This document shows, one piece after another, positions 6,192 to 28,509 of a DNA stretch of 37,721 nucleotides. The notes under the pieces were generated by a model, which saw nothing but the letters and a program-made list of their open reading frames with translations, was not told the origin of the DNA and made no database searches. The DNA is taken from positions 1 to 37,721 of the forward strand of contig NZ_FOCO01000030.1 of assembly GCF_900110135.1 (NCBI RefSeq). Direction: 5' to 3'. How positions within the stretch are numbered: position 1 is the stretch's first letter; each line of letters begins with the position of its first letter. Source of the DNA: Pseudorhodobacter antarcticus (GTDB taxonomy: Bacteria; Pseudomonadota; Alphaproteobacteria; Rhodobacterales; Rhodobacteraceae). Made by a program: the position numbers and the translations under genes.

Positions 6192-6229
6192 GGCACGGGT
6201 TCTTTCTTGGCGGTGTGACAGGGGCAGTT

Positions 6230-10333: not shown

Positions 10334-11419
10334 TCATTGAGGCCGTCGATTTGGTGCGCGAGTTTGACATTGATACCGGCTTGTTCCAGCCCGCGCGCAA
10401 GGTGCATGCTGTCAGCGGCGTGTCCTTCGCCGTGGCGCGGGGCGAAACCTTTGCCATTGTGGGCGAGTCTGGCTGCGGCAAGTCCACGCTTGCCCGCACG
10501 CTGGCGCGCCTGCTTGCCCCCACTTCGGGCGAGGTTTTGATCGAGGGGCAACCCGTGGGCAAGGTCAAGGGCGCGGAACTGGTCAAATTGCGCCGCAAGG
10601 TCCAGTTTATCTTTCAAGACCCGTTCTCGTCGTTGAACCCGCGCATGACGGTGGGCGCGCTGATTGGGGAACCGATCGAAATTCACCGTCCCGAATTGAA
10701 TGCCCCCCAACGCCGGGCCGAAGTGACGGCCCTTTTGCAGCGCGTCGGCCTGCGTGCCGCGCACATGGACCGCTACCCACATGAGTTTTCGGGCGGTCAG
10801 CGCCAGCGCATCGGCATTGCCCGCGCCTTGGCCGCACAGCCCGACATTTTGGTGGGCGACGAGCCGGTCTCGGCGCTGGATGTCAGTGTGCAGGCGCAAA
10901 TTATCAACCTGTTGGATGACCTGAAAACCGAATTTGGCCTGACCCTGATCATCGTTGCCCATGACCTTGCCGTGGTGCGGCAGATGAGCGACCGGGTTGC
11001 CGTGATGTATCTGGGCCGGATAGTTGAGATTGGGCCCGCCGACGCGATCACCGCCCATCCCCGCCACCCTTACCCAAGCCCTTATGAGCGCGGTGCCAGA
11101 GGCGCGCGTTGGCACCGCCAGGGTTCCGCTGCGCCTTGAGGGCGAAATACCGTCGCCGATGGACCCACCCTCGGGGTGCCGGTTCCGCACCCGCTGCCCC
11201 CACGCGCAGCCTTTATGCGCGCAAAAGGCACCCGCCCTTGCGCCCGGCCCCGGCGGGGTCGCGGTGGCCTGCCATTTCAGTGCGGAGATTCCGCCCATGG
11301 ATTTCAGCACCGGCAGCGCGCCGGTTTCCGCCGCAGCACAACGGCGTTTCGCACTGTTTCGCGACGTCATCACCGACCGAACCACCCCCAAAAAGCCAAA
11401 ACAGGGAGACGGACAATGA
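10324..11419 (+). pseudogene. Dpp/Opp-type ATP-binding protein (DppF-like), frameshifted near its end
   Basis: The reading frame opens at ATG 10324 ([14 protein letters not shown]) and encodes a full ATPase core: [49 protein letters not shown] and VAHDLAVVRQ. At about 11071-11076, inside the usual [12 protein letters not shown], the frame breaks: the text reads as if two bases of TACACC were lost (TACC). The original frame then runs out at 11139 with unrelated residues. The next frame continues correctly ([13 protein letters not shown], later [14 protein letters not shown]) to 11417-11419. The catalytic core would survive, but the C-terminal cysteine-cluster extension would be lost. It may be a real mutation or a read/assembly error. 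Confidence 0.85.
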
Positions 11420-12912
11420 AAAAGACCCTTCTGCTTACCGCCTTGCTCAGCGCGACTGCGCTGGGCGCACAGGCATCCGAATTGAAGATCGGATTGGAAA
11501 GCGACCCCGATGCGCTTGATCCCGATAAGTCGCGCACATTTGTGGGGCGGATCGTGTTCACCTCGCTGTGCGACAAGCTGGTGGACATCACGCCAGAGCT
11601 GTCCATCGTCCCGCAGCTTGCCACCGCTTGGGAAACGTCCGATGATGGCAAGGCGCTGACCATGACCTTGCGCGATGGCGTGACATTTCACGATGGAACC
11701 CCGTTCAATGCCGAAGCGGTTAAGGCCAACATCGAACGCTCCAAAACCTTTGACGAAAGTGTGCGCAAATCTGAATTGAGCAGCATCGACACCGTCGAAG
11801 TGGTGGACGCGCTGACCGTAAAGTTCAATCTGTCGGCGTCCGATGCCACGCTTTTGGCGCAGTTGGCCGACCGGGCGGGCATGATGATGGCCCCAAGCGC
11901 GCTGTCGCCGGATTTTGCCTCCAACCCTGTGTGTTCCGGCCCTTTCACGCTGACCGAGCGGGTTTCGCAGGATAAAATCGTTCTCGACAAATTCGCAGGC
12001 TATTGGAACGCCGATGCGATTTTGCTGGAGCGTGTTACCCTTGTGATGATCCCCGACAGCACCGTGCGTCTGGCCAACCTGCAATCGGGTGACATCCAGA
12101 TCGTCAATCAGTTGTCGGCAACCGATGCCGCAGCCGTGGAGGGTAACGCGCGCCTGCGCTTTGCCAACATCACCGGGCTTGGCTATCAAGGATTGACGTT
12201 TAACGGGGCCAATGGCGATAAATCCAACAATCCGTTGGGTCAGAATGCAAAACTGCGCGAAGCATTCGATCTTTCCATCGACCGTGATGCGATCAACCAA
12301 GTGGTGTTCAACGGCTTGTTCACCCCGGCCAGCCAGCCGTTCACGCCAGCCAGCCCTTACTACAACCCCGATTTCCCGGTGATCAAGCGCGACATCGAAG
12401 CCGCCAAGGCGATCTTGGCCGAAGCTGGGGTGCAAACGCCGGTCAAGGTGCAGGTGCAGGTGCCAAACACGCCGGTCACCCTGCAACTGATGCAGGTGAT
12501 CCAGTCTATGGTTGCCGAGGCCGGGTTCGAGGTTGAATTGGTGTCCAAGGAATTCGCCACCTTGATCGCTGATGCCAGTGTCGGTGATTTCCAAATCAGC
12601 CAGCAGGGTTGGTCGGGGCGGGTTGACCCGGACGGCAATATTTTTGGCTTTGTCACCACAGATGCCGGGTTCAACGATGGCAAATATTCCAACGCCGAAG
12701 TGGACCGCCTGTTGAGAGAGGCGCGCACCATTTCTGACCCCGCAGCCCGGGCAGAGCGTTACAAGGCGGCCACAGCCATTCTCGCTGTGGACCGCCCGCT
12801 GATCTATCTCTATCACCTCGGCTGGCTTTATGGGCTTGATGCAAAGGTGCAGGGATTGACCCTGTATCCAGACGGCATGCTGCGTCTGGAAGGCGTTTCT
12901 GTGACGGAGTAA
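11416..12912 (+). CDS. Extracellular solute-binding protein, family 5 (importer 1)
   Basis: This 498-residue periplasmic binding protein of the DppA/OppA type captures the substrate for importer 1. A Sec signal peptide ([20 protein letters not shown]) occupies residues 1-20. Family features follow: [25 protein letters not shown] near residues 84-108, and [20 protein letters not shown] near 280. There is no lipobox cysteine, so it should be soluble. The start at 11416 overlaps the end of the frameshifted ATPase gene (ATGA), and GGGAG lies at 11404-11408. The ligand is unknown; family members bind peptides, nickel, glutathione, opines and other amides. Confidence 0.9.
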
Positions 12913-12931
12913 CGCCGCCACCGCAAACCCG

Positions 12932-12956
12932 TCGGGGCCACCCCAATGTGGCCTCG
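12932..12956 (+). other. Stem-loop after the importer-1 binding-protein gene
   Basis: A ten-pair hairpin with one G-T wobble (arms TCGGGGCCAC and GTGGCCTCGA, loop CCCAAT) lies 20 bases after the binding-protein stop. There is no T-run. Such intercistronic hairpins protect the upstream message and raise binding-protein level over permeases. A comparable hairpin occupies the same place in importer 3 (28474-28499). Confidence 0.6.
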
Positions 12957-12990
12957 ATACAAAACCTTAACGCCATCAAAGGACGACGCC

Positions 12991-13938
12991 ATGTTCGTGT
13001 TCTTTCTGCGCCGTCTTTTGGTGGCGGTCCCGACGCTGATCCTGATTTCTATCTTTGTCTTTTTGCTGCAACAGCTTTTGCCCGGCGATCCTGTCTTGGC
13101 GATGGCGGGCGAAGACCGTGACCTTGCGACGCTGGCCGCGCTGCGCGAACGCTATGGCCTGAACGAAACCCTGCCAGTGCAATACTGGGTATGGATATCG
13201 GCGGTGTTGCAGGGCGATTTCGGCACATCCATCCGCAGCGGAGAGCCGATTTTGGACCTGATCTTGCAAAAGCTGCCAGTCACCTTGCAACTTGCGGCGA
13301 TGTCCTTGGCCTTTGCCATGCTCATCGGCATTCCCATGGGGATCGTCTCGGCGGTGAATAAGGGCACAAAGATTGACCTTGCCGCCAACGTGATCGCCCT
13401 ATCTGGCCTGTCGATCCCGAATTTCTGGCTGGGGATTATGCTGATCTTGCTGGTGTCCGTGCGCTGGCAACTGTTTCCCGCCAGCGGCTATGTGCCCCCG
13501 TCCGAGGATTTCTGGCAATCCATCCGCACCATGCTGATGCCATCTTTTGTGCTGGGCACCGGGCTTGCGGCGGCGCTGATGCGCCATACCCGCTCGTCGA
13601 TGCTGGAGGTGCTGCGCCAAGATTATGTCCGTACCGCGCGCGCCAAAGGGCTGACCGAGCGGCGCGTGGTGCTGCGCCATGCTTTTCGCAATGCCCTGAC
13701 CCCGATTGTCACTCTGACGGCGCTGCTGTTTGGTGAATTGGTGGCCGGTGCTGTACTGACCGAACAAATCTTTACCATTCCCGGTTTTGGCAAGCTGATC
13801 GTAGATGCCGTTTTCAACCGCGATTACGCCGTGGTGCAAGGCGTGGTTTTGGTCACCGCTTTTGGCTTTATCTTTATGAACCTGTTGGCCGACATGGCCT
13901 ATGTTCTGCTTAACCCAAGACTAAGGCACGCCAGATGA
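12991..13938 (+). CDS. DppB-like ABC transporter permease (importer 1)
   Basis: This 315-residue inner-membrane permease begins with the typical FLRRLLVAVPTLILISIFVFLL first helix, followed by LLPGDP. It has six predicted membrane segments and an EAA-type loop seen as YVRTARAKGLTERRVVLRHAFRNALTPIV near residues 210-240. I chose ATG 12991, with AAAGGA at 12978-12983, over the upstream GTG at 12946, which adds a non-hydrophobic, non-family extension and covers the intercistronic hairpin region. The gene overlaps the next permease by ATGA. Confidence 0.9.
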   Translation: MFVFFLRRLLVAVPTLILISIFVFLLQQLLPGDPVLAMAGEDRDLATLAALRERYGLNETLPVQYWVWISAVLQGDFGTSIRSGEPILDLILQKLPVTLQLAAMSLAFAMLIGIPMGIVSAVNKGTKIDLAANVIALSGLSIPNFWLGIMLILLVSVRWQLFPASGYVPPSEDFWQSIRTMLMPSFVLGTGLAAALMRHTRSSMLEVLRQDYVRTARAKGLTERRVVLRHAFRNALTPIVTLTALLFGELVAGAVLTEQIFTIPGFGKLIVDAVFNRDYAVVQGVVLVTAFGFIFMNLLADMAYVLLNPRLRHAR

Positions 13939-14810
13939 GCACTGTTTCCGACGCCCCCGACGCCGTTTTGGACCGCCCCGCGAAAAGCCGCGCTTGGGCC
14001 AAATTCCGCGCCCACCGCATCGGCATGTTTGGCGCTGGTCTTGTGGGGTTCTTCGTTATTCTTGCAATCCTTGCACCCATCCTGCCCATCCAAGACCCTA
14101 TCGCCACCGATTGGGGTGCTGTGCGCCAACCTCCCTCCTCCACCTATTGGCTGGGCGCGGATGAGATTGGCCGCGATCTGCTGTCGCGCATGATTTGGGG
14201 GGCGCAAGCCTCGCTTTTGGCGGGGGTGGTGTCGGTGGGCATTGCACTGGGTTTGGGTGTGCCGTTGGGCATCATTGCGGGATACTTCGGCGGCTGGACC
14301 GACGCTGTAATCTCGCGCTGCACCGAGGCGCTGCTGGCGATGCCGTTCTTGATCCTTGCCATTGCCCTTGCGGCGTTTCTGGGGCCATCGCTGACCAATG
14401 CAATGCTGGCGATTGGTATCGCCGCCACGCCGGTTTTCATCCGCATCACGCGCGGGCAGGTGCTATCAGTTGCGGCTGAGGATTATGTGGAAAGCGCGCG
14501 CGCCATAGGCCTGCCGACGCATCTGATTTTACGCCGCTATATCTTGCCCAACGTGTTGCCGCCCATTTTGGTGCAAGCCACGCTAACCATTGCCACCGCG
14601 ATCATCGCCGAGGCATCGCTCAGTTTTCTGGGTCTTGGCCAGCAACCGCCCGCGCCCTCATGGGGGTCTATGTTGAACACGGCCAAGAACTTTCTGGCGC
14701 AGGCGCCGTTGATGGCGCTGTGGCCCGGCATCGCGATTTTCGTCGTGGTTCTGGGGTTCAACCTTCTTGGCGACGGCTTGCGCGATGCGCTTGACCCGCG
14801 GTCTGACTGA
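13935..14810 (+). CDS. DppC-like ABC transporter permease (importer 1)
   Basis: This 291-residue second permease of importer 1 has the long N-terminal cytoplasmic part, first helix near residues 35-55, and the DppC hallmark WLGADEIGRDLLSRMIWGAQASLL near residues 73-96. The EAA loop is seen as YVESARAIGLPTHLILRRYILPNVLPPILVQ, and the C-terminus GDGLRDALDPR is characteristic of the family. It starts inside the stop of the DppB-like gene. The stop is 11 bases before the Ggt-family gene, with AGGAGAG between them, so the hydrolase is part of the same transcript. Confidence 0.9.
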   Translation: MSTVSDAPDAVLDRPAKSRAWAKFRAHRIGMFGAGLVGFFVILAILAPILPIQDPIATDWGAVRQPPSSTYWLGADEIGRDLLSRMIWGAQASLLAGVVSVGIALGLGVPLGIIAGYFGGWTDAVISRCTEALLAMPFLILAIALAAFLGPSLTNAMLAIGIAATPVFIRITRGQVLSVAAEDYVESARAIGLPTHLILRRYILPNVLPPILVQATLTIATAIIAEASLSFLGLGQQPPAPSWGSMLNTAKNFLAQAPLMALWPGIAIFVVVLGFNLLGDGLRDALDPRSD

Positions 14811-14821
14811 CAGGAGAGATC

Positions 14822-16620
14822 ATGGACACTTTCACCACACGCCCCGATATTCGCGGCACTTTCGGGGTTGTCACCTCGACCCATTGGATCGCCTCGGCGG
14901 CTGGGATGCGGATGCTGGAACTGGGCGGCAACGCGTTTGATGCCGCCGTCGCTTGCGGGCTGACGCTGCAAGTGGTGGAGCCACATCTGAACGGCCCGGC
15001 AGGCGATTTGCCCGCCATTGTCCATATCGCCGCGACCGGAGAGACGCGGGTGCTGTGCGCGCAAGGCGTGGCCCCCGCTGCCAGCACAATCGCGCATTTC
15101 CGGGGTCTTGGGTTGGATCTGGTGCCGGGTTCGGGCTTTTTGTCGGTGGTGGTGCCGGGTGCGTTCGATGGCTGGATGCTGATGTTGCGCGACCACGGCA
15201 GCCTTGATCTTGCAACGGTGATGGAGCCTGCAATCAGCTATGCCCGCGATGGCCACCCGATGCTGCCGCGCGTCGCCGCGACAATCGCCGGGCTGCATGA
15301 TTTCTTTGTCGCGCATTGGCCAACCAGCGCGCAAACATGGGCACCGGGCGGCACTTTGCCCAAGGATTGGGCCCTATTTCGCAACCCCGATCTTGCCGCC
15401 ACCTATCAGCGCTTGGTCGATGACAGCAGCGATGGCAGCAGCGATGGCGGCTGCGAGGCGCAAATCGACCACGCCCGCAAGCTGTGGCGTGAGGGCTTTG
15501 TGGCGGATGCAATTTTTGACTATACCGATGGTCGCAAGGTGATGGACGTGTCGGAAAACGCCCACGGCGCCGTGTTGGCCCGCGCCGACATGGCCAAATG
15601 GCGTGCCACTTGGGAGGCGCCTTTGACCGCCACCTATCACGGCTGGACCGTGGCCAAGACGCAAAGCTGGTCGCAAGGGCCGGTGCTGTTGCAAACGCTG
15701 AAATTGCTGGAGGGGATCGACCTTGCCGCAATGGACCCGCTGGGCGCGGAGTTCGTCCATACCGTGGTTGAGGCGATGAAACTGGCCTATGCCGACCGCG
15801 AAGCCTATTACGGCGATCCGGCGTTTTCTGATATTCCCATGGACCACTTGTTGTCTGACGCCTACGCCGCCGAACGTCGGGGCCTGATCGGCAAAAAGGC
15901 CAGTTTGGAGCAGCGCCCCGGACGGGTCGACGGTTTTGCCCATCTGGCCGACGCCGCCATTGCCCGCGCCGCGCGCGACTTCACTGCGGCCAGCGGTGTC
16001 AGCGCAGGCGAGCCGACAATGTCACATCTGACCGAACGGCGCGGCGACACGGTGCATATTGACGTGATTGACCGCTGGGGCAATATGGTTGCGGCAACGC
16101 CGTCGGGGGGGTGGCTGCAATCCAACCCGGTCATTCCGGGCCTTGGGTTTTCGCTGGGATCGCGCGCGCAGATGTTCTGGCTGGAGGAGGGGCTGCCAAC
16201 CTCGCTGATCCCCGGTGCCCGGCCCCGCACCACCCTTACCCCGACGATGGCCGAAAAAGACGGGCAGCGCATTGCGTTCGGCACGCCGGGGGGGACCAAC
16301 AGGACCAGTGGCAACTGATTTGGTTCCTGCGCTTTGTTCATCACGGCTATGGCTTGCAACAGGGTTTGGATGCGCCGTTGTTTCACACCGAGCATTTCCA
16401 AAGCAGCTTTTACCCCCGCGCAGCCCTGCCCGGAGAGATGACCATAGAGCCTTCGTTCGGCGAAGCGGTGATCGACGATTTGCGGGCGCGAGGCCACATT
16501 GTGACCGTGGCCCCGCCGATGACCGTAGGCCGCCTGACGGCAGCGATCCGAGACGCCGACGGCAGCTTGCTTGCCGGTGCCACGCCGCGCTTGATGCAGG
16601 CCTATGCCGTGGGTCGGTAG
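14822..16620 (+). pseudogene. Gamma-glutamyltransferase family protein (second copy), frameshifted in a G-tract
   Basis: This is a Ggt-family Ntn-hydrolase gene of about 600 codons if restored. The N-terminal GGNAFDAAVACGLTLQVVEPH is near residues 40-60, and the likely self-cleavage nucleophile is Thr410 in RRGDTVHIDVIDRWGN. At 16288-16294 there is a run of seven G. With seven, the frame ends at 16318 (GTPGGTNRTSGN). With eight, it continues as GTPGGDQQDQWQLIWFLRF and runs to TAG 16618-16620 with a normal family C-terminus. The truncated form lacks about 100 residues of the small subunit. No signal peptide is seen. A sequencing miscount, a true null allele or a reversible slippage switch are all possible. 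Confidence 0.85.
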
Positions 16621-16960
16621 ACTGCGGGCCGGTAACCTGCGGGCCCGTGACAATCGGAGGGCTGCGAAAGGTGTCGCAGCCTGTAAAGGGGGCCTTGTGG
16701 CTGCTTTTCGCGCGGGGGCGCAGGGGTTTTTTGCGGCCATAATGCCGCCCTTAGCCCTATATTGCGACACAGCCGGGCGCAGCTGCCCCGTTTTTAGGCG
16801 GTATCTGAGATTTGACGAAACTGCATAAAGCTTTTTATTGACGACTGGCATGCATTGCCCGACAGTTAATCAACATCTGGCGAAAAGCCGCGCGGCATCT
16901 GGGCCCTGATCGTAGACCTTTTGGTCTGCATCCGGGCTTTTTGCATTTTGGAGCATTGGC
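16621..16960 (+). promoter_or_regulatory. Leader region of the amiC-amiR-importer 2 operon
   Basis: A 340-base gap without a credible gene, lower in GC toward its 3' part. It ends in a strong intrinsic terminator (16904-16942) only 18 bases before the first start codon. It therefore looks like a transcribed attenuator leader for the ANTAR protein encoded at 18058. Promoter candidates are weak: TTGACG occurs at 16812-16817 and 16838-16843 without a good -10. A small stem GGCA/TGCC lies at 16847-16859. I did not find a clear pair of hexaloops with the A1/G4 pattern known from ANTAR target RNAs. Confidence 0.55.
16904..16942 (+). terminator. Intrinsic terminator (attenuator) in front of amiC
   Basis: The left arm is CCCTGATCGTAGACC (16904-16918), the loop TTTT (16919-16922) and the right arm GGTCTGCATCCGGG (16923-16936), with one or two non-canonical positions. 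It is followed directly by CTTTTT (16937-16942). This is a classic rho-independent terminator, placed upstream of the first gene of an operon rather than after the last one. The preceding Ggt-family gene ends about 280 bases earlier, so it could also serve that operon, but the position just before the GGAG and GTG start fits attenuation better. Confidence 0.75.
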
Positions 16961-18061
16961 GTGATCGAAAAGCGGCGCATTCCATTGGGGATCCTCTACT
17001 CCGCATCGGGGAGTTACGCTTTGATTTCGCAAGCCTGCCGTGTGGGTGTATCGTCGGCGATCAACGCCGTGAACGCGGACCCTGCGCTGGATCTGGCCTT
17101 TGTGCCGGTGGTGCGGGACCCTGCGGGCAACGTCGATCTTTATGGCCCGATGTGTGAGGATATCCTGCGCCATTCCGGTGCAAACCATGTTATTGGCTGT
17201 GTCACCTCATGGAGCCGCAAAGAGGTGATCCCGACCCTTGAAAAACACGGTGGATCGCTGTGGTATGCCGTGCCTTATGAGGGGTTCGAGGCGTCAGATC
17301 ATATCGTTTATACCCACGCTTGCTCGAACCAACATCTGCTACCGTTGTTGGCGTTTGTGATGCCCCGCTTTGGCGGCCGCGGGTTTCTGGCAGGGTCAAA
17401 TTACATCTGGGGCTGGGAGATGAGCCGCCTTGCGCGCGAGCGGATCATGCAGGCCGGGGGCGTGGTGCTTGGCGAGCGGTATTTGCCCATCGGCTCTGTG
17501 GATGTGGACCGGATGATCGAAGAGATCAGGCTGGCCCGGCCTGATTTTGTGCTGAACTCGTTGATCGGGCCTTCGTCTTATGCGTTCATGGTGGCCTATC
17601 GCGCGCTTGGGCTGTCGGACCCGCATTTTGCGCCCGCGCGGTGCCCGGTGCTGTCGTGCAATCTGACCGAATGTGAACTGCCCGCGCTTGGAGGTGCCGC
17701 CGAAGGGTTAATCGCTGCGGGCCCGTATTTTTGCGGGGCGGCAGGCTGGCCCCGCCAGCGGTGCGACTTTGGCTCCTCGCATGAAGCGGCTGCATTTGCC
17801 GCAGTAATGGAGCTGGCGCGGCTGCTTGCGCACCGTCCGGGGGGCGAACACCTAAGCCTTGCGCGATTGCTGGCCGAACATTCGGGCACGCCGGGCATCA
17901 TTGATGTGCAGACGCATCACACCGTTTTGCCGGTTATCATCGCGCAGGTGCGGGGTGGCGCGTTTCACCCCCTGCGCCGGATCGAAGGTGTGGCAGGTGA
18001 TCCCTATCTAACCCGGGGGTGTGACGTGCGGGCTGCCCCCTTGCTGCGGGTGGTGTCGTGA
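16961..18061 (+). CDS. amiC: AmiC-like amide-sensing regulator
   Basis: This 366-residue protein has a type-I periplasmic-binding fold without a signal peptide, so it is cytoplasmic. It follows Pseudomonas AmiC closely: GILYSASGSYALI at the N-terminus, GCVTSWSRKEVIPTLEKHGGSLWY near residues 78-100, PYEGFE near 104-109, AGSNYIWGWEMSRLARE near 145-160 and DVDRMIEEIRLARPDFVLNSLIG near 183-205. In the known system AmiC binds small aliphatic amides and holds AmiR inactive when inducer is absent. The start is GTG 16961 with GGAG at 16949-16952. Its stop overlaps the start of the ANTAR gene, fitting an AmiC-AmiR complex made in fixed ratio. Confidence 0.88.
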   Translation: MIEKRRIPLGILYSASGSYALISQACRVGVSSAINAVNADPALDLAFVPVVRDPAGNVDLYGPMCEDILRHSGANHVIGCVTSWSRKEVIPTLEKHGGSLWYAVPYEGFEASDHIVYTHACSNQHLLPLLAFVMPRFGGRGFLAGSNYIWGWEMSRLARERIMQAGGVVLGERYLPIGSVDVDRMIEEIRLARPDFVLNSLIGPSSYAFMVAYRALGLSDPHFAPARCPVLSCNLTECELPALGGAAEGLIAAGPYFCGAAGWPRQRCDFGSSHEAAAFAAVMELARLLAHRPGGEHLSLARLLAEHSGTPGIIDVQTHHTVLPVIIAQVRGGAFHPLRRIEGVAGDPYLTRGCDVRAAPLLRVVS

Positions 18062-18678
18062 AGCAGCCTATTCGCATTCAGAACCTTGGCGGCGCGCGGG
18101 CGTTGATTTTGCACCGCGCGCATCCGACAGTGGTGGCCCTGACCCGCCAGTTGACGGCCATCGGGCTAGAGGTGCGGCAGGCATGGCCCGAGGGTGACGC
18201 GGATGTGGCCGCCGATGCCAGCGGCGTGGACTTTGTGTTTTTTGATGCCGACATGGGCCATGATGGGATGTTCCCATGGCCCGCGCAGCAACCGCCGGTG
18301 CCGCTGATCGCCCTGATTGGGTCCGAGGCGCCGGGCCGGATTGAATGGGCGCTGCGGGCGGGCGCGCAGGCGCAATTGCTGAAGCCTGTGGGCGATAACG
18401 GGGCCTATTCGGCGCTGCTGATCGCGCGCGATGCCTTTGATGCGCAACGGGCCCTGTTTGCCGAGGTTGCCGATCTGCGCCGGCGCCTGAATGAGCGGCA
18501 GACCGTGGTGCGCGCCGTGACCATGCTGATGGCGCGCGGCAAACCCGAGGCCGAGGCTTACGGCCAGCTGCGCCAGATGGCGATGGCATGGCGCATCAGT
18601 CTAGAGGATGCCGCTGGGCGGATCGTTGGTCCAACTGACCAGACGGGGGGCCGCGATGACCGACGCGACTGGGGTTAG
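18058..18678 (+). CDS. amiR: AmiR-like ANTAR-domain antitermination regulator
   Basis: This 206-residue protein has an N-terminal receiver-like domain (about 10-125) and a short coiled-coil linker (EVADLRRRLNERQ, near 137-149). A C-terminal ANTAR RNA-binding domain follows, with the conserved pattern VVRAVTMLMARGKPEAEAYGQLRQMAMAWRISLEDAAGRIV (about 150-190). ANTAR proteins bind nascent leader RNA and prevent a terminator from forming. The gene starts in the stop of amiC (GTGA) and overlaps the next permease. The attenuator at 16904-16942, upstream of amiC itself, is the natural target, which would make the whole operon self-induced. About 23 residues at the C-terminus extend past the ANTAR core. 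Confidence 0.88.
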   Translation: MKQPIRIQNLGGARALILHRAHPTVVALTRQLTAIGLEVRQAWPEGDADVAADASGVDFVFFDADMGHDGMFPWPAQQPPVPLIALIGSEAPGRIEWALRAGAQAQLLKPVGDNGAYSALLIARDAFDAQRALFAEVADLRRRLNERQTVVRAVTMLMARGKPEAEAYGQLRQMAMAWRISLEDAAGRIVGPTDQTGGRDDRRDWG

Positions 18679-19540
18679 GGCCACACGCCCGCGCGGTGTG
18701 CTGTCGCGCCTTGCCCGGCGCAAACTGGCGGTGTTTGGCGCGGTCGTCATTGTGCTGATCGTGGGGGCGGCGCTGTTTGCACCGCTGATTGCGCCTTTCG
18801 CGCCTGACGACCAAATGTTTGACGGGCTGACGTTGCAGGGTGCGCCAATGCCGCCCGATGCCAAGTTTCTGATGGGCACCGACCTTTTGGGCCGCGATCT
18901 GTTCTCGCGCATTTTGTATGGTGCGCGCACATCGCTGGTGATCGGCGTGGTGGCCAATGGGCTGGCACTGCTGATTGGCACGCTGGTCGGGCTGACGGCA
19001 GGGTATTTTGGCGGCTGGCTGGGGGCGGCCCTGATGCGCTTCACCGATCTAATGATGGCCTTTCCGGCATTGTTGCTGGCGATTTGTTTGGCGGCGATTT
19101 TCCAACCCTCGCTGTGGATTGTGGCTTTGGTCATTGCGCTGGTGAACTGGGTGCAGACCGCCCGTGTGATCTATACCGAGACCACCGCCATCGCCGCGCG
19201 CGATTTTATCGCAGCCGAGCGGACATTGGGTGCGGGCACGGGGCGCATTTTGTTCCGCCATATCCTGCCGCACCTCATGCCGACGATCATTGTCTGGGGC
19301 ACTTTGGGGATATCGACCACGGTGCTGCTGGAGGCAACTTTGTCGTTTCTGGGCGTCGGGGTGCAGCCCCCCACACCCAGCTGGGGCAACATCATCTTTG
19401 AAAACCAGACCTATTTCCAATCGGCCCCTTGGCTTGTGTTCATTCCCGGTGTGGCGATCATTCTTTTGGCGCTGGCGTTCAATCTGGTGGGTGACGCCTT
19501 GCGCGATGAGCTGGACCCAACACAGCGGGGGCGAACCTGA
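18656..19540 (+). CDS. DppC-like ABC transporter permease (importer 2)
   Basis: This 294-residue inner-membrane permease has its first helix near residues 27-47, the hallmark FLMGTDLLGRDLFSRILYGARTSLV near residues 78-102 and the EAA loop FIAAERTLGAGTGRILFRHILPHLMPTII near 183-211. The C-terminus is GDALRDELDP. The ATG at 18656 (MTDATGVRATRPRG) is preferred; it overlaps the amiR end by 23 bases. In this operon the C-type permease precedes the B-type, the reverse of importers 1 and 3, so the operon was assembled separately. The stop overlaps the next start (TGATG). Confidence 0.9.
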   Translation: MTDATGVRATRPRGVLSRLARRKLAVFGAVVIVLIVGAALFAPLIAPFAPDDQMFDGLTLQGAPMPPDAKFLMGTDLLGRDLFSRILYGARTSLVIGVVANGLALLIGTLVGLTAGYFGGWLGAALMRFTDLMMAFPALLLAICLAAIFQPSLWIVALVIALVNWVQTARVIYTETTAIAARDFIAAERTLGAGTGRILFRHILPHLMPTIIVWGTLGISTTVLLEATLSFLGVGVQPPTPSWGNIIFENQTYFQSAPWLVFIPGVAIILLALAFNLVGDALRDELDPTQRGRT

Positions 19541-20460
19541 TGCTGGGCTATCTGACAAGGCGGCTGGTGCAATCGGCGCTGATCTTGCTGGGGGTCAGTT
19601 TCATCACTTTCATTCTGCTTTATGTCCTGCCCGCCGACCCCGTTCGCCAAATCGCGGGACGTGCGGCCACGCCCGAGACGGTCGAAAATATCCGCCGTCA
19701 GCTTGGCCTTGATCAGCCATTTTTTGTGCAATACGGACGGTATTTGTGGGGGCTCGTGCAGGGCGATATGGGCCGCAGCTATTTGCAAAAGACCGAAGTG
19801 ACCGAGTTGATCTTGTCACGCCTGCCCGCCACGCTTTTGTTGATGCTGGCGGCGATCACCGCCGAGTTGCTGATTGGTCTGGCCATGGGCATCATTGCCG
19901 CCGTGTGGCGTGGGCGCTGGCCGGATCAGCTGTTGATGATGGCTTCGTTCATCACGGTATCGGCACCGCAATTCGTGGTGAGCCTGCTGCTGCTTTATGT
20001 TTTCGCGGTGCAACTGCGTTGGTTTCCCATTGGCGGCTACGGCACGTTTGCGCATTTGGTGCTGCCTGCGCTGACCTTGGGTATCCTTGGGTCTGGCTGG
20101 TACGCGCGGATGATGCGTTCGTCGATGATCGACGTGTTGCGGACCGATTACATCCGCACCGCGCGCGCCAAGGGCCTTGGTCGCGCGCGCGTGGTGCTGC
20201 GCCATGCCCTGCCCAACGCTATATTGCCCGTGATTGCCATGATCGGCATCGACATCGGCATTTTTATGGGCGGCATTGTGGTGGTGGAATCGGTGTTTGG
20301 CTGGCCCGGCATTGGCCAGCTTGCTTGGCAGGCCATTCAGCGCGTCGACATTCCCATCATCATGGGCGTCACGCTGGTTTCGGCCTGCGCCATCGTGCTT
20401 GGAAATTTGCTGGCCGATCTCGTGGCCCCCTTTGTTGACCCCCGCATCAAGCTGCGCTGA
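19540..20460 (+). CDS. DppB-like ABC transporter permease (importer 2)
   Basis: This 306-residue permease begins MLGYLTRRLVQSALILLGVSFITFILL with the family LPADPVRQIAG after the first helix. The B-type EAA loop is seen as YIRTARAKGLGRARVVLRHALPNAILPVIA, near residues 204-233. It forms the membrane channel with the preceding DppC-like protein. The start overlaps the previous stop by one base, and the next gene begins 37 bases later with its own GGAG. Confidence 0.9.
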   Translation: MLGYLTRRLVQSALILLGVSFITFILLYVLPADPVRQIAGRAATPETVENIRRQLGLDQPFFVQYGRYLWGLVQGDMGRSYLQKTEVTELILSRLPATLLLMLAAITAELLIGLAMGIIAAVWRGRWPDQLLMMASFITVSAPQFVVSLLLLYVFAVQLRWFPIGGYGTFAHLVLPALTLGILGSGWYARMMRSSMIDVLRTDYIRTARAKGLGRARVVLRHALPNAILPVIAMIGIDIGIFMGGIVVVESVFGWPGIGQLAWQAIQRVDIPIIMGVTLVSACAIVLGNLLADLVAPFVDPRIKLR

Positions 20461-20497
20461 TGCGCCTTTTATTTGACCACCCAACAGGAGAAAAATC

Positions 20498-22108
20498 GTG
20501 AATAAATGGCTTCTCTCGACCGCACTGACCCTGTCGCTGGCCGCACCTGTGCTGGCGCAAGATTACACCCCCGATCCAAACGCCAAAAGTGGCGGGTCGA
20601 TCACAATCACCTATAAGGATGATGTGGCCACGCTGGACCCTGCCATCGGCTATGACTGGCAGAACTGGTCAATGATCAAATCCATCTTTGACAGCCTGAT
20701 GGATTATGTGCCCGGAACCACCACGCTGCGTCCCGGGCTTGCGGACAGTTACGAATTGTCGGCAGACGGCCTAGTTTACACCTTCAAGCTGCGTGCGGGT
20801 GTGAAGTTTCACAATGGCCGCGAGATGACGGCGGATGATGTAAAATATTCGCTGGACCGGGTGACCAACCCCGCCACCCAATCGCCGGGGGCAGGGTTCT
20901 TCGGCTCCATCGCCGGGTATGATGCGGCGGGCGACGCGGGGCTTTCGGGCGTGGAAGTGGTGGACCCATTGACGGTTAAAATCACGCTGTCGCGACCGGA
21001 TGCCACATTCCTGCATGTCATGGCCCTGAATTTTTCGTCGATTGTCCCAAAAGAGGCCGTTGATGCGGCGGCGGGCGATTTTGGCAAAATGCCCGTCGGC
21101 ACTGGGGCTTTCAAGCTGGCAGAATGGACGTTGGGCCAAAAGCTGGTGTTCGAGAAAAATGCTGATCATTGGCGCGCAGGTGTGCCCTACCTTGACAGCA
21201 TCGTGTTCGAGGTGGGCCAAGAGCCGGTTGTCGCCCTGTTGCGGCTGCAAAGCGGCGAGGTTGACGTGCCCGGTGACGGTATCCCACCCGCCAAGTTTGT
21301 CGAAGTGATGGCCGATCCTGTGCAAGCGGCGCAAGTCGTGATCGGGGGGCAATTGCAGACAGGATACATCACCCTGAACGTCACGGCCCCGCCTTTTGAC
21401 AAGCTAGAGGTCCGAAAGGCCGTCAATATGGCGATCAACAAAGACCGGATTGTGCAGATTATTAACGGCCGGGCGATCCCGGCCAACCAGCCGCTGCCGC
21501 CCTCGATGCCCGGATATACTGCGGGTTATACGGGCTTTGCCTTTGATGTGGAGGGTGCCAAGAAACTGCTGACGCAGGCCGGGCTGCCCGATGGGTTCGA
21601 GACCGACCTGTATGTGATGAACACCGACCCTAACCCCCGTATTGCCCAAGCGATGCAGCAAGATCTGGCGGCCATTGGGGTCAAGGTGAACATCCGAAGC
21701 CTCGCGCAGGCCAATGTGATCGAGGCGGGCGGTGCAGGCACAGCGCCCATGATCTGGTCGGGCGGTATGGCGTGGATTGCCGATTTTCCCGATCCGTCGA
21801 ACTTCTACGGCCCAATCCTTGGCTGTTCGGGGGCCGCTGAAGGGGGTTGGAACTGGTCGAAGTTCTGCGATGCAGGCCTTGATGCCAAAGCGGCGCAAGC
21901 TGACAGCATGGCCGACCCGGCCAAGGCTGCCGAGCGGATGGCGCTGTGGTCTGATGTCTACATGGGCGTGATGGAGCAGGCGCCTTGGGTGCCGGTGTTC
22001 AATGAGGAGCGCTATACGATGAAGTCCGACCGCATGGGCGGCGCGGATGCGCTTTACGTCGATCCGGTGTCGATCCCTGTCAACTATGACTATGTTTTCG
22101 TGAAATAA
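20498..22108 (+). CDS. Extracellular solute-binding protein, family 5 (importer 2)
   Basis: This 536-residue periplasmic binding protein has a Sec signal peptide ending near residue 21 (LSLAAPVLAQ). Family features include TFKLRAGVKFHNGREMTADDVKYSLDRV near residues 95-123 and KAVNMAINKDRIVQIINGRAIPANQPLPP near 307-335. The start is GTG 20498 behind AGGAG. It lies directly before an acetamidase/formamidase gene and in the same operon as the amide sensor, so its ligand is probably an amide-bearing compound that also induces through AmiC. This is inference from context. It is not closely similar to the binding proteins of importers 1 or 3. Confidence 0.9.
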   Translation: MNKWLLSTALTLSLAAPVLAQDYTPDPNAKSGGSITITYKDDVATLDPAIGYDWQNWSMIKSIFDSLMDYVPGTTTLRPGLADSYELSADGLVYTFKLRAGVKFHNGREMTADDVKYSLDRVTNPATQSPGAGFFGSIAGYDAAGDAGLSGVEVVDPLTVKITLSRPDATFLHVMALNFSSIVPKEAVDAAAGDFGKMPVGTGAFKLAEWTLGQKLVFEKNADHWRAGVPYLDSIVFEVGQEPVVALLRLQSGEVDVPGDGIPPAKFVEVMADPVQAAQVVIGGQLQTGYITLNVTAPPFDKLEVRKAVNMAINKDRIVQIINGRAIPANQPLPPSMPGYTAGYTGFAFDVEGAKKLLTQAGLPDGFETDLYVMNTDPNPRIAQAMQQDLAAIGVKVNIRSLAQANVIEAGGAGTAPMIWSGGMAWIADFPDPSNFYGPILGCSGAAEGGWNWSKFCDAGLDAKAAQADSMADPAKAAERMALWSDVYMGVMEQAPWVPVFNEERYTMKSDRMGGADALYVDPVSIPVNYDYVFVK

Positions 22109-22109
22109 T

Positions 22110-23069
22110 ATGTGCAAAGCCTGTAACTATACCATCCATGGCGCGCAGCATCATTTCGGCTGGGACAATTCCCTGGCCCCGGTGCTGCGCGCTGAACCGG
22201 GATCAACGATCCTGTTTCATTGCAATGACAGCTCGGCGGGCCAACTTGGCCCGTCGTCGACCGTCGCCGATATTGCCGCGCTGGATTTCGGCAAAATCAA
22301 CCCGGTGTCGGGCCCTGTGTATATTGAGGGCGCGATGCCCGGTGATGCGGTGAAAATTACCATCGAAAGCTTTGCCCCGCGTGAGATGGCGGGTGTAGGG
22401 TTTGGGTGGACCGCGAACATCCCCGGCTTTGGTCTTTTGGCCGACCAATTTCCCGACCCAGCGCTAAAGGTCTGGAAATATGACACGCGCACGATGGAGC
22501 CTGCCCTTTGGGACACCAACGCCCGCGTGCCGCTGAAACCCTTTGCCGGCACCATCGGCAATGCTTTGGCCGAGGCAGGGCTGCATTCGGTCGTGCCCCC
22601 GCGCCGGGTTGGTGGCAATCTGGACATCCGGGATCTGAACGCTGGGGTCACACTTTACCTGCCGGTCGAGGTGGCAGGGGCGCTGTTCAGCGTGGGTGAT
22701 ACCCATGCAGCCCAAGGGGATGGCGAGGTGTGTGGCACCGCCATCGAGTCGCCGATGGACGTGGTGCTGACCCTTGATCTTGTCAAAGGTGCCAACCTGA
22801 AAACCCCGCGCTTTACCACGCCGGGGCCGGTCACGCGGCATCTGGATGCCAAGGGCTATGAGGTGACGACCGGGATTGGGCCTGATCTGATGTCGGCGGC
22901 CCGCGATGCAGTGTCGGCCATGGTGGACCTGTTATCCGCGCAGCGCGGAATGGCGGCGGTGGATGCCTATATGCTGGTATCGACCTGCGGCGATCTGCGG
23001 ATATCCGAAATTGTGGATATGCCCAACTGGGTTGTCAGCTTCTACTTTCCGCGTTGCGTGTTTGAATGA
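22110..23069 (+). CDS. Acetamidase/formamidase family protein (second copy)
   Basis: This 319-residue FmdA/AmdA-family amidohydrolase is cytoplasmic. Motifs are GPVYIEGAMPGDAVKITIESFAP near residues 69-91, GGNLDIRDLNAGVTLYLPVEVAGALF near 169-194 and SVGDTHAAQGDGEVCGTAIESP near 195-216. The N-terminus MCKACNYTIHGAQHHFGWDN resembles formamidase-like members. It starts one base after the binding-protein stop and ends in ATGA overlap with the fused ATPase, so the enzyme is built into the importer operon. It probably releases ammonia from the imported amide. It shares only family motifs with the copy at 6230-7168. Confidence 0.9.
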   Translation: MCKACNYTIHGAQHHFGWDNSLAPVLRAEPGSTILFHCNDSSAGQLGPSSTVADIAALDFGKINPVSGPVYIEGAMPGDAVKITIESFAPREMAGVGFGWTANIPGFGLLADQFPDPALKVWKYDTRTMEPALWDTNARVPLKPFAGTIGNALAEAGLHSVVPPRRVGGNLDIRDLNAGVTLYLPVEVAGALFSVGDTHAAQGDGEVCGTAIESPMDVVLTLDLVKGANLKTPRFTTPGPVTRHLDAKGYEVTTGIGPDLMSAARDAVSAMVDLLSAQRGMAAVDAYMLVSTCGDLRISEIVDMPNWVVSFYFPRCVFE

Positions 23070-24856
23070 GCTTTGCATCTGAGCCAACCGTCGGGGCCGC
23101 GCTGGCCCCGACACCAGACCCCGTACTGCGGGTCGATGGGCTGTGCGTTTCAGTGCGAACTGACGCGGGGCTGAAACCGCTTGTCAGCGATCTGTCTTTT
23201 GCCCTGAACCGTGGCGAGACGCTTGCCATTGCGGGCGAAAGCGGGTCGGGCAAGTCGATCACCTCGCTGGCGATCATGGGGCTGCTGCCACCGCCTGCGG
23301 TGCATATCTCGGGCGGCAGCATCCATCTTGGGGCGGTCGGTTTGCACGATTTGCCCGAACATCAGATGCGCGCCATTCGCGGCGACCGTATCGCGATGAT
23401 TTTTCAAGAACCGATGACCAGCCTGAACCCGGTGCTGACCGTGGGCTTTCAACTGGCCGAGGCGATCCGCGCGCATCAAGATGTCAGCCGCGCCACCGCC
23501 CGCACCCGCGCAATTGAGGCGTTGCAGGCCGTGCGCCTGTCCGAACCTGCCCGCCGGTTCGACCAATACCCGCACGAGCTTTCTGGCGGAATGCGCCAGC
23601 GTGTGATGATCGCCATGGCGCTGGCCCTGCGCCCCGAGGTGTTGATTGCGGACGAGCCGACAACCGCGCTTGACGTGACCGTGCAGCGCGAGGTGCTGGA
23701 CCTTTTGCGCGATTTGCAGTGCGATCTGGGCACCGCGATTATCCTGATCACCCATGATATGGGCGTGGTTGCCGAAATGGCCGACCGGGTGATCGTGATG
23801 CAAAATGGCCGGATGGTGGAACAGGCCGCCACCCGCGACCTGTTTGCGCGACCCACGGAGCGCTACACCCGCGACCTGCTGGCCGCCGTGCCGCGCATGG
23901 GGCAGGGGGCGGCGCGTCATGCCCCCGTGCCTGCGGCTCTCGTCGCCAGCTTGCGCGATGTCAGCGTGCGCTTTGGTCTGAAAGGCGGGCTGCTGGGCCG
24001 CACGGTGCGCAATGTGCATGCGGTTGAGGCGGTCAGCTTTGACATTCGCCGCGCTGAAACATTCGCCTTGGTGGGCGAGTCTGGCTGCGGTAAATCGACC
24101 ATCGCCAAAGCGATGATGGGGCTGGTGGATCACGCGGGCAGCATTGCGATCGGCGACACTTCGCTAAAAGGTCTGGACAAACAGGGCCTTAAAAACATCC
24201 GCCGGCGCGTGCAGATGGTGTTTCAAGACCCGATGGCCGCGTTGAACCCCCGCATGCGGGTGGGCGATCTGATTGCGGAGCCGCTTGTCATTCACCGCAT
24301 CGGCACGCGCGAAACCCAATGCGCCCGCGCGGCGGATCTGATGGCCCGCGTGGGCCTGACCGCCGACCAATACGACCGATACCCGCATGAATTTTCGGGC
24401 GGGCAGCGCCAGCGCATCTGCATTGCCCGCGCTTTGTGCCTGAACCCTGAGTTGATCATCGCCGATGAAAGCGTGTCGGCGCTGGATGTCAGCGTGCAGG
24501 CGCGGGTGTTGGATTTGCTTGCCACCTTGCAGCGCGAATTTGGCGTGGCCTATCTGTTCATCAGCCATGATATGGCGGTGGTGGAAAACATCTGCGACCG
24601 GGTGGCGGTGATGTATCTGGGCCAGATTGTCGAGATGGGCACCAAGGCGCAGGTGTTTGGCAACTCGCAACACCCCTACACCCGGCGCTTGATCGACGCG
24701 GTGCCGGTGCCCGATCCTGCATTTGTGCGCCAACCGCAGCCACGCCTTGCGGGCGATGTGCCAAGCCCGGTTTTTGCAATTGGCGCGGGGCCGGTGCGGG
24801 TGGCGTTGACAGATATTGGCGGAGGGCATCTGGTGGCGCAAGGGTCAGGTGATTGA
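23066..24856 (+). CDS. Fused double ATP-binding protein of a Dpp/Opp-type importer (importer 2)
   Basis: This 596-residue protein joins a DppD-like and a DppF-like ATPase, as in GsiA-type proteins. The first domain has Walker A GESGSGKS at residues 57-64, LSGGMRQRV and LIADEP. The second begins near residue 290 and has GESGCGKST near 337-345, FSGGQRQRICIARAL and IIADESVSALDVS, with ES in place of the usual EP after Walker B. The catalytic glutamates are present in both halves. The cysteine-cluster extensions of separate DppD/DppF are reduced. It is the last gene of the amiC-amiR operon and faces the importer-3 ATPase gene tail to tail with a 25-base gap. Confidence 0.9.
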   Translation: MSFASEPTVGAALAPTPDPVLRVDGLCVSVRTDAGLKPLVSDLSFALNRGETLAIAGESGSGKSITSLAIMGLLPPPAVHISGGSIHLGAVGLHDLPEHQMRAIRGDRIAMIFQEPMTSLNPVLTVGFQLAEAIRAHQDVSRATARTRAIEALQAVRLSEPARRFDQYPHELSGGMRQRVMIAMALALRPEVLIADEPTTALDVTVQREVLDLLRDLQCDLGTAIILITHDMGVVAEMADRVIVMQNGRMVEQAATRDLFARPTERYTRDLLAAVPRMGQGAARHAPVPAALVASLRDVSVRFGLKGGLLGRTVRNVHAVEAVSFDIRRAETFALVGESGCGKSTIAKAMMGLVDHAGSIAIGDTSLKGLDKQGLKNIRRRVQMVFQDPMAALNPRMRVGDLIAEPLVIHRIGTRETQCARAADLMARVGLTADQYDRYPHEFSGGQRQRICIARALCLNPELIIADESVSALDVSVQARVLDLLATLQREFGVAYLFISHDMAVVENICDRVAVMYLGQIVEMGTKAQVFGNSQHPYTRRLIDAVPVPDPAFVRQPQPRLAGDVPSPVFAIGAGPVRVALTDIGGGHLVAQGSGD

Positions 24857-24881
24857 GGCCAGAGACGGCGCCAGTCCCGGC

Positions 24882-26693
24882 TCAGGATTGCAGGACCAGA
24901 TGGCCGGGGGCCACCTCGGTATAGACCGACGGGGCGGACTGATGACCAAGCGGAAAGATCGGCGAAGTGATTGGCTTGAAGCTTAGGTCATCGGCAAAGC
25001 GGCGGCGGCGCGGGTCGGCGATGGGCACCGCAGACAGCAGCTGTTGTGTATAGGGGTGTTGCGGGTTGTCGAACACCGCCGCGCGTGGCCCGATTTCGAC
25101 GATCCGCCCCAGATACATGACGCCGACGTGATGGGCGACCCGTTCCACTACGGCCATGTCATGGCTGATGAACAGGTAAGACAGCCCAAGGTCGGCCTGC
25201 AACTCCATCATCAGATTCAGCACTTGCGCCTGCACCGACACATCCAGCGCCGACACTGCCTCGTCTGCAACGATCAGTTTAGGGTTGACCGCCAGTGCCC
25301 GCGCGATCGCAACACGCTGGCGCTGACCGCCCGAAAGTTCGTGCGGGAAACGTGTCATGAACGCACGTGGCAATTGAACCCTGTCAAAGATTTCGGCCAC
25401 GCGGTCGCGCAGTGCCTGCCCTTGTGCGAGGCCAAAGTTCTGGATCGGTTCGGCCACCTGATCGCGCAGCCGCCGGTAAGGGTTAAGCGAGGCAAAAGGG
25501 TCTTGGAACACCATCTGCATATCGGCGCGCGCACGTCGCAGATCATGAGGGCCAAGCGCGCCGATATCGCGCCCATTGATCCACACCTCGCCGGATTGCG
25601 GCTCAATCAGCCGCAGGATCGACCGCCCGCACGAAGATTTGCCACAACCGGATTCGCCGACAAGCGCCAAGGTTTCGCCCACGTTCAGGGTAAAGCTGAC
25701 ATCCTCGACCGCATGAACCTGCGCTACGGTGCGACGCAGGATGCCGCCCTTAACCGGGAAACGGGTGGTCAGGTGGCGCACGTCCAGCAGCACCTCTGGC
25801 TTGCGCGCAGTAACGGGTTTGGCGGCGGCATAGGCGGCGTCATCCCCAAGGATACGCATCTTTTCGGGTGCAGGCTTGCCCTTCATCTCGCCCAGTTTTG
25901 GCACAGCGGCCAGCAGGGCGCGGGTGTAGTCCTGCTGGGGTGTCTCGAATATCTCGGTGACGGTGCCGGTCTCGACGATGCGTCCGCGATACATCACCAC
26001 AACCCGGTCAGCCATCTGCGCCACAACGGCCATATCATGCGTGATGAACAGCACGGCCATGCCTTGCTCGCGCTTCAGCCGGTTTATCAGGGCCAGAATC
26101 TCGGCCTGAATGGTCACGTCCAGCGCAGTTGTCGGCTCATCGGCGATCAGCAGGCGCGGCTCACAGGCCATGGCCATGGCGATCACGACACGCTGGCGCA
26201 TGCCACCCGAAAGCTCGTGCGGGTATTGGCGCAGGCGGCGTTCAGGTTCGGGGATACGAACCGAGCGCAGCAGGTCCAGCGCGCGGGTGCGGGCTTCGGT
26301 TTGGGAAAGGCCCTTGTGCAGGATCAGCCCGTCGGTCAACTGGCGTTCTATGGTGAAAACCGGGTTCAGCGCGGTCATCGGTTCTTGAAAGATCATCCCG
26401 ATCTCATTGCCACGGATCGCGGCCATCACCTGCGAATCGGCTGCGGCCACATCCAGAACCTGCCCATCCGGGCGGCGAAACGACAAAGCGCCGCCGGTTA
26501 TGGTGCCCCCGCCAAATTCCACCAGCCGCATCAGCGACAGAGCCGTCACCGATTTGCCCGACCCGCTTTCGCCCACCACACAAACCGTTTCGCCGGGGTT
26601 GATGGTGAAAGACACATCCTGCACCCCGATGATCGGGCCGCTGTCTGTGGCAAAGGCAACCTGCAAGGCATCGACGGTGACAAGAGCGTTCAT
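24882..26693 (-). CDS. Fused double ATP-binding protein of a Dpp/Opp-type importer (importer 3)
   Basis: This 603-residue GsiA-like double ATPase has Walker A GESGSGKS near residues 40-47 in the first domain, with [15 protein letters not shown] and [13 protein letters not shown]. The second half has [14 protein letters not shown] near 345, LSGGQRQRVAIARAL and LIVADEAVSALDVS, with EA replacing EP after Walker B. It is the last gene of the importer-3 operon, and its ATG overlaps the stop of the DppC-like gene (ATGA). It resembles the importer-2 fusion in architecture but differs throughout, so it is a paralogue rather than a recent copy. Confidence 0.9.
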   Translation of the reverse strand: MNALVTVDALQVAFATDSGPIIGVQDVSFTINPGETVCVVGESGSGKSVTALSLMRLVEFGGGTITGGALSFRRPDGQVLDVAAADSQVMAAIRGNEIGMIFQEPMTALNPVFTIERQLTDGLILHKGLSQTEARTRALDLLRSVRIPEPERRLRQYPHELSGGMRQRVVIAMAMACEPRLLIADEPTTALDVTIQAEILALINRLKREQGMAVLFITHDMAVVAQMADRVVVMYRGRIVETGTVTEIFETPQQDYTRALLAAVPKLGEMKGKPAPEKMRILGDDAAYAAAKPVTARKPEVLLDVRHLTTRFPVKGGILRRTVAQVHAVEDVSFTLNVGETLALVGESGCGKSSCGRSILRLIEPQSGEVWINGRDIGALGPHDLRRARADMQMVFQDPFASLNPYRRLRDQVAEPIQNFGLAQGQALRDRVAEIFDRVQLPRAFMTRFPHELSGGQRQRVAIARALAVNPKLIVADEAVSALDVSVQAQVLNLMMELQADLGLSYLFISHDMAVVERVAHHVGVMYLGRIVEIGPRAAVFDNPQHPYTQQLLSAVPIADPRRRRFADDLSFKPITSPIFPLGHQSAPSVYTEVAPGHLVLQS

Positions 26694-27505: not shown

Positions 27506-27506
27506 T

Positions 27507-28448: not shown

Positions 28449-28473
28449 AAAGCGATGCTCGCGCCAAAGGTGT

Positions 28474-28499
28474 CCGGCGGGTCAGGGGCGACCCGCCGG
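28474..28499 (-). other. Stem-loop between binding-protein and permease genes of importer 3
   Basis: A perfect ten-pair GC-rich hairpin: arms CCGGCGGGTC and GACCCGCCGG, with a six-base loop, in the 61-base gap after the binding-protein stop. No T-run follows in the direction of transcription. It likely stabilises the binding-protein message and lowers read-through into the permease genes, so binding protein is made in excess. Confidence 0.7.
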
Positions 28500-28509
28500 G
28501 ATGCTGGCT

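Follow-up and report, generated by a model that had tools for sequence, protein, structure and literature searches.

In Pseudomonas, AmiC senses amides and AmiR, a protein with an ANTAR domain, antiterminates the leader of the amidase operon. The ANTAR site is defined by an adenine at base 1 (A1) and a guanine at base 4 (G4) of hexaloops (PMC3369931, PMC8934654), and the published amiE leader has both bases in both hexaloops (PMC3369931). EutV is a regulator that phosphorylation switches (PMC3369931). Its Tyr164 stacks with G4, which also receives hydrogen bonds from Arg142, Lys149 and Glu160, and the substitution M172A abolished binding (PMC8934654). The latter study also redefined the minimum ANTAR site as one hexaloop and posed the natural role of single hexaloops as a question. 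In NasR, K347R made binding about tenfold weaker (PMC7496416), and Lys347 is taken here to occupy the EutV Lys149 position. The present analysis concerns a stretch of 37,721 nucleotides (nt) of Pseudorhodobacter antarcticus (contig NZ_FOCO01000030.1, positions 1 to 37,721; hereafter the window), in which a short leader precedes a seven-gene operon, amiC-amiR-dppC-dppB-dppA-fmdA-dppDF. This leader is likely to be an attenuator of the entire operon under the control of AmiC and AmiR, with ligand-released AmiR acting through a hairpin designated P2. A slight preference is also given to the view that an alphaproteobacterial clade of AmiR switched its RNA code, losing the Lys149 equivalent as the loop changed from AxxGxx to A-x-x-H-R-x (H, non-G; R, purine), and that lineages without the preceding hairpin, P1, contain natural single-hairpin ANTAR antiterminators.

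The locus resembles the P. aeruginosa AmiC/AmiR system in its pairing of an AmiC-like sensor with an AmiR_N/ANTAR protein, in a terminator that overlaps the second hairpin and in regulators encoded within the operon they control (for P. aeruginosa, PMC3795266). It differs from amiE in that G is uncommon at loop base 4, P1 mostly lacks a hexaloop or is missing, the Lys149 equivalent is Val, and the attenuator precedes amiC and a Dpp-type importer. With EutV and the eut leaders it shares ANTAR antitermination, loop A1 and the equivalents of Arg142, Glu160, Tyr164 and Met172, whereas G4 and the G4-contacting Lys149 are both changed. Probable NasS-NasT systems in the window's family are similarly arranged, with an ANTAR gene, then a sensor-like gene (in L218 and L224) and leader hairpins after it, but keep Lys149 (20/20) and A1/G4 loops such as gagc-AAAGCC-gctc (20/20). 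A fourth relative is the importer of PDB 8UPI, which we take to be an L-amino-acid-amide binder from Mesorhizobium and which was reportedly described in a 2024 paper in Biochemistry along with many FmdA_AmdA-linked operons. The window likewise has a related binding protein with adjoining FmdA_AmdA and Dpp-type importer genes, to which a variant AmiC/AmiR leader is added.

The leader and its conservation

The base arms of the terminator, GCCC (16903-16906) and GGGC (16934-16937), enclose an AGACC-UUUU-GGUCU hairpin and are followed by a run of T (16938-16942) ending 18 bases before the GTG codon of amiC at 16961. GCC at 16903-16905 is common to the 3' arm of P2 and the 5' arm of the terminator, and P2 and the terminator base are mutually exclusive. 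A strong terminator 18 bases before the first codon had been pointed out in the first-pass annotation, and its presence is borne out by the sequence and by conservation in relatives, although the interval given for the circuit began too far upstream of the probable leader (about 16873-16942). In the window alone, terminator-like sites were not above chance (11 in 16301-24960 against 9.2 expected), and the terminator is accepted as real because it is conserved across relatives. Fold z-scores were -1.53 for a 331-nt stretch and -2.55 for a 111-nt stretch, and the predicted fold of the full leader is the terminator (-29.3 kcal/mol).

Comparison was made across 91 distinct family leaders, the set remaining after 19 duplicates and one truncated locus were dropped. 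The motif GGC-A-N5-GCC occurred 55-126 nt upstream of amiC in 91/91 of these and in 11/273 dinucleotide shuffles, and a strict detector for P2 with an overlapping terminator recognised 83/91 family leaders and 34/58 loci outside the family, compared with 14/273 shuffles. When 36 leaders out of the 91 were aligned, seven of the ten predicted terminator pairs showed two-sided changes, and two of the ten were broken or gapped in 8/36 and 12/36 leaders. Outside the family, the P2 stem covaries to AGC/GCT in L204 and L157-L159. The comparison across homologous operons that had been recommended as a check found a conserved leader structure.

A leader RNA model, R1, built from 36 leaders with the window's own included, matched 16872-16942 at 64.2 bits. 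A scan of the genome with R1, in which 150/2512 candidates were scored, gave one strong site, the window leader; further AmiR targets in the genome were considered and rejected, the next-best match reaching just 19.5 bits (E 0.2).

Promoter and two leader lengths

The probable promoter (Table 1) was compared across 119 leaders with the GGC-A motif, comprising 91 family leaders and 28 from outside. TTGAC was present 43-93 nt upstream of P2 in 93/119, a variant word in 13 and neither in 13. Distances fell into classes of 43-48 nt (22 leaders, 21 of them from the family), 51-63 nt (65) and 87-93 nt (6), with TTGAC at 43-63 nt in 87/119. A -10 form TAnnnT was evident in the 51-63 nt, or long, class (T 42, A 41 and T 40 of 65) and less clear in the 43-48 nt, or short, class.

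The two classes differ in P1. A hairpin ending at most 4 nt before P2 was found in 51/65 long leaders against 234/1300 shuffles, and in 2/22 short leaders against 53/440 shuffles; under a narrower rule admitting only the best-scoring hairpin, P1 was found in 46/65 long and 2/22 short leaders. The P1 loop (n = 51) had 5 nt in 28 cases, 6 nt in 10, 7 nt in 8 and 4 nt in 5, that of the window being the pentaloop GAAAA. If the promoter is placed correctly, transcription of the short leaders would begin some 7-13 nt upstream of P2, and these leaders (22/87), among them that of Paracoccus ravus (L098), would have no room for P1 because the presumed promoter is too near P2. Long and short classes switch three times on a quick unrooted tree of 74 family AmiC proteins (21 short).

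Loop code and contact residues of AmiR

The base defining the first position of ANTAR loops is retained: loop base 1 was A in 81/81 matches obtained with no loop letter required (it is A by selection in the GGC-A-N5-GCC set), and the window loop is AUCUGG. At base 4 the family leaders (n = 91) had C in 74, A in 9, T in 7 and G in 1, the window having U, and at base 5 they had G in 66, A in 24 and T in 1, giving a purine in 90/91. The 91 family AmiR proteins had Val (89), Ile (1) or a gap (1) in the Lys149 column and kept the other EutV contact columns, with Arg142 as R in 90, Tyr164 as Y in 85 and F in 5, Arg168 as R in 89 and Met172 as M in 90. The window AmiR, with Val154 at the Lys149 position, keeps the equivalents of Arg142, Glu160, Tyr164 and Met172, and with them three of the four G4 contacts. 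This clade of AmiR seems to read a variant loop, with A1, a base other than G at position 4 and a purine at position 5, instead of AxxGxx.

Lys was present in 12/149 AmiR-family proteins and in 20/20 NasT-like proteins (probable NasT) of the window's bacterial family, which served as a control. The NasT-like loci had an A1 hexaloop hairpin with G4 in 20/20, about 1.2-1.5 kb after the NasT-like gene, picked by the author from among A1 hexaloops with a stem of at least 4 by position and likeness and not by G4. In L218 and L224, a sensor-like gene directly follows the NasT-like gene and stops about 1.17 kb further along, short of the hairpin. A simple terminator mark was seen in L218, L219 and L231 only, and NasT detectors demanding an overlapping terminator or a close hairpin pair found few leaders. 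A count by eye gave a pair of A1/G4 hexaloop hairpins, spaced by 44-51 nt, in 14/20 of the NasT-like loci (L217-L236).

Seven of the AmiR-family loci with Lys (L157-L161, L178 and L179) had terminator-linked G4 hexaloops (AGGGCA, AAGGAT, ATGGAA, AACGAA and AACGGA), with loops lacking G4 also present (A4 in L178 and L179, AATACG; C4 in L160, AGCCAC). The other five were excluded from the G4 count, having no hexaloop (L166, L168 and L169) or only hexaloops without G4 at unlikely places (L211 and L212). In each of the seven loci, the amiC-amiR unit encodes a second UrtA-like protein further downstream, and the A1/G4 hexaloops lie past amiR, some 2 kb from the start of the unit; L157-L159 have one before amiC too. 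As a separate observation, the AmiR-like proteins of L167, L170-L175, L177, L209 and L210 have Thr at the EutV Met172 position, and no clear hairpin was seen before amiC in these loci.

Alternative readings of the loop change

A weaker but serious contender holds that the loop change and the loss of Lys149 are unrelated, AmiR using Arg142, Glu160, Tyr164 and Met172 while base 4 drifted. The three retained G4 contacts agree with this, and several further observations count against a code switch. A tree built without the Lys149 column shows a single Lys/non-Lys change and six changes of G4, leaving one independent pair; G4 is still present in six non-Lys leaders; two rows excluded for other stems, L173 and L196, had G4 (as has GGC-ACCGGC-GCC of L196); and P. 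aeruginosa AmiR keeps Lys149 and lacks the Arg142 and Tyr164 equivalents, so that ANTAR contacts vary anyway. With a single switch on the tree, the Lys149-G4 coupling, though striking, is suggestive only, and its use as statistical proof was dropped. Unrelated change is nevertheless disfavoured by G4 in 27/27 Lys cases counted, the loops having been picked by the author among several hairpins and the five Lys cases above left out, and by the pattern of variation within the loop. This pattern was counted over the 120 leaders in which a P2 stem of GGC or AGC goes with a non-Lys AmiR (a gap in one case); three rows with other stems (L172, L173 and L196) were excluded. Base 4 was other than G in 114 of them and base 5 was a purine in 114, compared with purines at bases 2, 3 and 6 in 56, 28 and 63, so the loop appears constrained rather than free to drift.

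Far less probable is unchanged recognition, with canonical control by a dual hexaloop (AxxGxx twice) of the kind found in eut, nas and amiE. The protein families are the same, P2 overlaps an intrinsic terminator, A1 is conserved, and the C:G closing pair is that of the NasR consensus from systematic evolution of ligands by exponential enrichment (PMC7496416). There is also one A1/G4 hexaloop within 16600-16965, at 16668, in a 9-bp hairpin at 16659-16682 (forward strand; loop AAGGUG) 3' of a split gamma-glutamyltranspeptidase gene; this hairpin, however, stands some 190 nt ahead of the conserved leader and may be an alternatively folding terminator, because part of it could pair with a downstream GGCUGC that is followed by UUUU. 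The canonical motif expected in the first-pass annotation was not recovered, given G4 in just one of the 91 leaders and a hexaloop in few P1 hairpins, and A1/G4 hexaloops (stem at least 4) in the 350 nt before amiC were not enriched (28/90 loci against 157/450 shuffles, omitting one locus with less than 300 nt upstream).

The altered loop, the altered contact residue and the one-hairpin leaders look new. A literature search that covered few subscription papers recognised no report of the loop variant or of single-hairpin leaders. A published covariance search kept A1/G4 (PMC3369931), and searches bound to these bases would probably miss much of this leader group. The occurrence of the loop change beside a contact-residue change makes recognition testable by swapping one residue or base, and leaders with and without P1 under related regulators make the question of single hexaloops testable.

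Proposed mechanism

Without ligand, AmiC would hold AmiR, and polymerase would make a leader of about 70 nt in which the terminator at 16903-16942 forms. Ligand on AmiC, probably a small or amino-acid amide, would free AmiR, which would bind P2 and keep GCC at 16903-16905 from GGC at 16935-16937; the terminator base would therefore stay open and the seven-gene operon would be transcribed. With amiC and amiR inside the operon they control, this would form a positive loop, and the operon would import the amide by the Dpp-type importer and hydrolyse it by the FmdA-type amidase. The genes, the conservation, the overlap of P2 with the terminator and the differences in loop and residue are seen in the sequences, while we infer AmiR binding and release, the ligand (likely an amide) and the sense in which regulation runs from the P. 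aeruginosa system. As regards the original proposal of an AmiC/AmiR attenuator that autoregulates the whole operon, the sequence agrees with an attenuator before amiC, with AmiC and AmiR as the likely controllers (a search of the genome turned up a single ANTAR gene, the operon's amiR) and with control of the whole operon, amiC and amiR included; it is the canonical motif that had to be given up.

Several results weigh against this attenuator model. The strict detector misses 8/91 family leaders and 24/58 loci outside the family, the window's leader being among those missed because its terminator stem is interrupted. The family gives no P2 covariation, since the stem is 3 bp and invariant. The -10 box of the window is weak and one base off the register of its relatives. 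Forcing P2 gives -25.0 kcal/mol and forcing P1 and P2 gives -21.7 kcal/mol, both weaker than the terminator fold, and the predicted nascent folds at 16906 and 16912 are another small hairpin, for which reasons P2 would need protein to form.

It is improbable that GGCA-N5-GCC is read by a factor other than AmiR, such as another protein, a metabolite or a leader peptide. The AmiR-P2 contact is itself a prediction, an Rfam search gave 0 matches at gathering scores, and in some amiC-amiR loci outside the family the motif is missing before amiC; but amiC-amiR follow it in 91/91 family loci, its overlap with the terminator is that of ANTAR sites, and A1 hexaloop hairpins occupy the leader position of NasT-like loci within the same bacterial family. 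The least credible reading, in which the terminator is part of the preceding transcription unit and amiC is served by a separate promoter after it, without attenuation, draws on the similar look of a plain terminator in one genome and on a generic scan that listed no promoter at the window leader before the terminator, but amiC is accompanied by terminator and P2 in all 91 leaders, the gamma-glutamyltranspeptidase-like neighbour was matched in just two other loci (L090 and L093) and not directly before amiC, TTGAC stands at a set distance before P2, and the U-run is just 18 nt away from the start codon.

Operon genes and gene order in relatives

The seven genes are on the same strand and almost gapless, and open reading frames and domain search agree with the gene make-up first proposed (AmiC-like, AmiR-like, two permeases, binding protein, amidase and fused ATPase).

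Table 1. Features of the leader and of the operon in the window
Feature	Positions	Strand	Remarks
Probable promoter	16838..16866	+	TTGACG 16838-16843, 17-nt spacer, GACAGT 16861-16866
Probable leader RNA	16873..16942	+	Start inferred from promoter position, about +/-3 nt
P1 hairpin	16878..16890	+	UGGC-GAAAA-GCCG, pentaloop
P2 hairpin, proposed AmiR-binding antiterminator	16894..16905	+	GGC-AUCUGG-GCC
Intrinsic terminator and U-run	16903..16942	+	Sequence, minimum-energy folds, covariation
amiC-like sensor	16961..18061	+	366 aa, GTG start; PF13433 (Peripla_BP_5)
amiR-like ANTAR antiterminator	18058..18678	+	206 aa; ANTAR (PF03861) and AmiR_N (PF21332); Val at EutV Lys149 position
dppC-type permease	18656..19540	+	PF00528 (BPD_transp_1), PF12911
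dppB-type permease	19540..20460	+	PF00528 (BPD_transp_1), PF19300
SBP_bac_5 solute-binding protein (dppA)	20498..22108	+	Family 5; close relative of PDB 8UPI
Short FmdA_AmdA amidase (fmdA)	22110..23069	+	319 aa; PF03069; best PDB matches 5UBU, 2II1
Fused DppD-DppF ATPase (dppDF)	23066..24856	+	596 aa; two ABC_tran stretches

The AmiR-like protein scored 44.8 bits for PF03861 (cut-off 27.3) and 37.2 bits for PF21332 (cut-off 27), and its best PDB match was 1QO0_D, AmiR of the P. aeruginosa AmiC complex. The AmiC-like protein, encoded next to amiR, had a Peripla_BP_5-type score of 234.5 bits, with P. aeruginosa AmiC (1PEA/1QO0, 1QNL) as best PDB matches; judged by eye, its N-terminus, (V/M)IEKRRIPLG, is without a hydrophobic stretch or export signal. 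In alignment, residue 106 is Val where 1PEA has Thr, and the inducer may for this reason differ from acetamide. The binding protein matched PDB 8UPI with 897 bits over residues 24-536 and is encoded next to the FmdA_AmdA gene, as expected of an 8UPI-type system. The term formamidase holds here as a family label only, membership of FmdA_AmdA being supported while the NCBIfam equivalog model gave 121.7 bits against a cut-off of 500.

A species-genome scan gave 191 AmiC relatives; the best 80, with records named Rhodobacteraceae and kin, were retained. Among the matches listed, AmiC at 56% identity or more was present in 35/394 genomes of the window's family, the window's genome counted; in one of the 35 (G216), the gene is fragmented, with a stop. 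The leader also points to a candidate regulator of the amide-uptake operon to which this sensor gene belongs. In the 73 loci with at least 7 kb after amiC, the seven-gene order was identical in 72, the exception being L106, with amiC-amiR-fmdA and then a less similar, differently ordered Dpp-type set. The same operon was found outside the family in L162, L163, L182, L183, L185-L187 and L189-L191; other amiC-amiR pairs precede urea-type transporter genes or other genes. AmiC/AmiR with a Dpp-type importer is a stable arrangement, since the gene order is kept in relatives inside and outside the family. The coupling to a Dpp/Opp-type importer, which the first-pass annotation considered unusual, is the rule among close AmiC relatives and, with a binding protein near 8UPI, has probably been described before.

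Surrounding sequence

Within the operon, a terminator-like hairpin at 20443-20464 (forward strand), at the dppB-dppA junction and followed by CCTTTTATTT, may tune expression of the binding protein. Upstream, the gamma-glutamyltranspeptidase gene appears split over two frames (14822-16318 and 16111-16620, forward strand), with PF01019 in the first part, through a sequencing error or gene decay. Judging from its gene content, the window holds an amide/peptide uptake island. It includes a second gamma-glutamyltranspeptidase (4596-6191) and a second short FmdA_AmdA protein (6230-7168), both on the reverse strand within 4596-7168, and an Amidase-family protein at 30122-31777 within 24882-31777 (reverse strand). 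Two more Dpp/Opp-type importers were recognised by eye from the open reading frames. Together, these genes fall within 4596-7168 (reverse), 9320-14810 (forward) and 24882-31777 (reverse).

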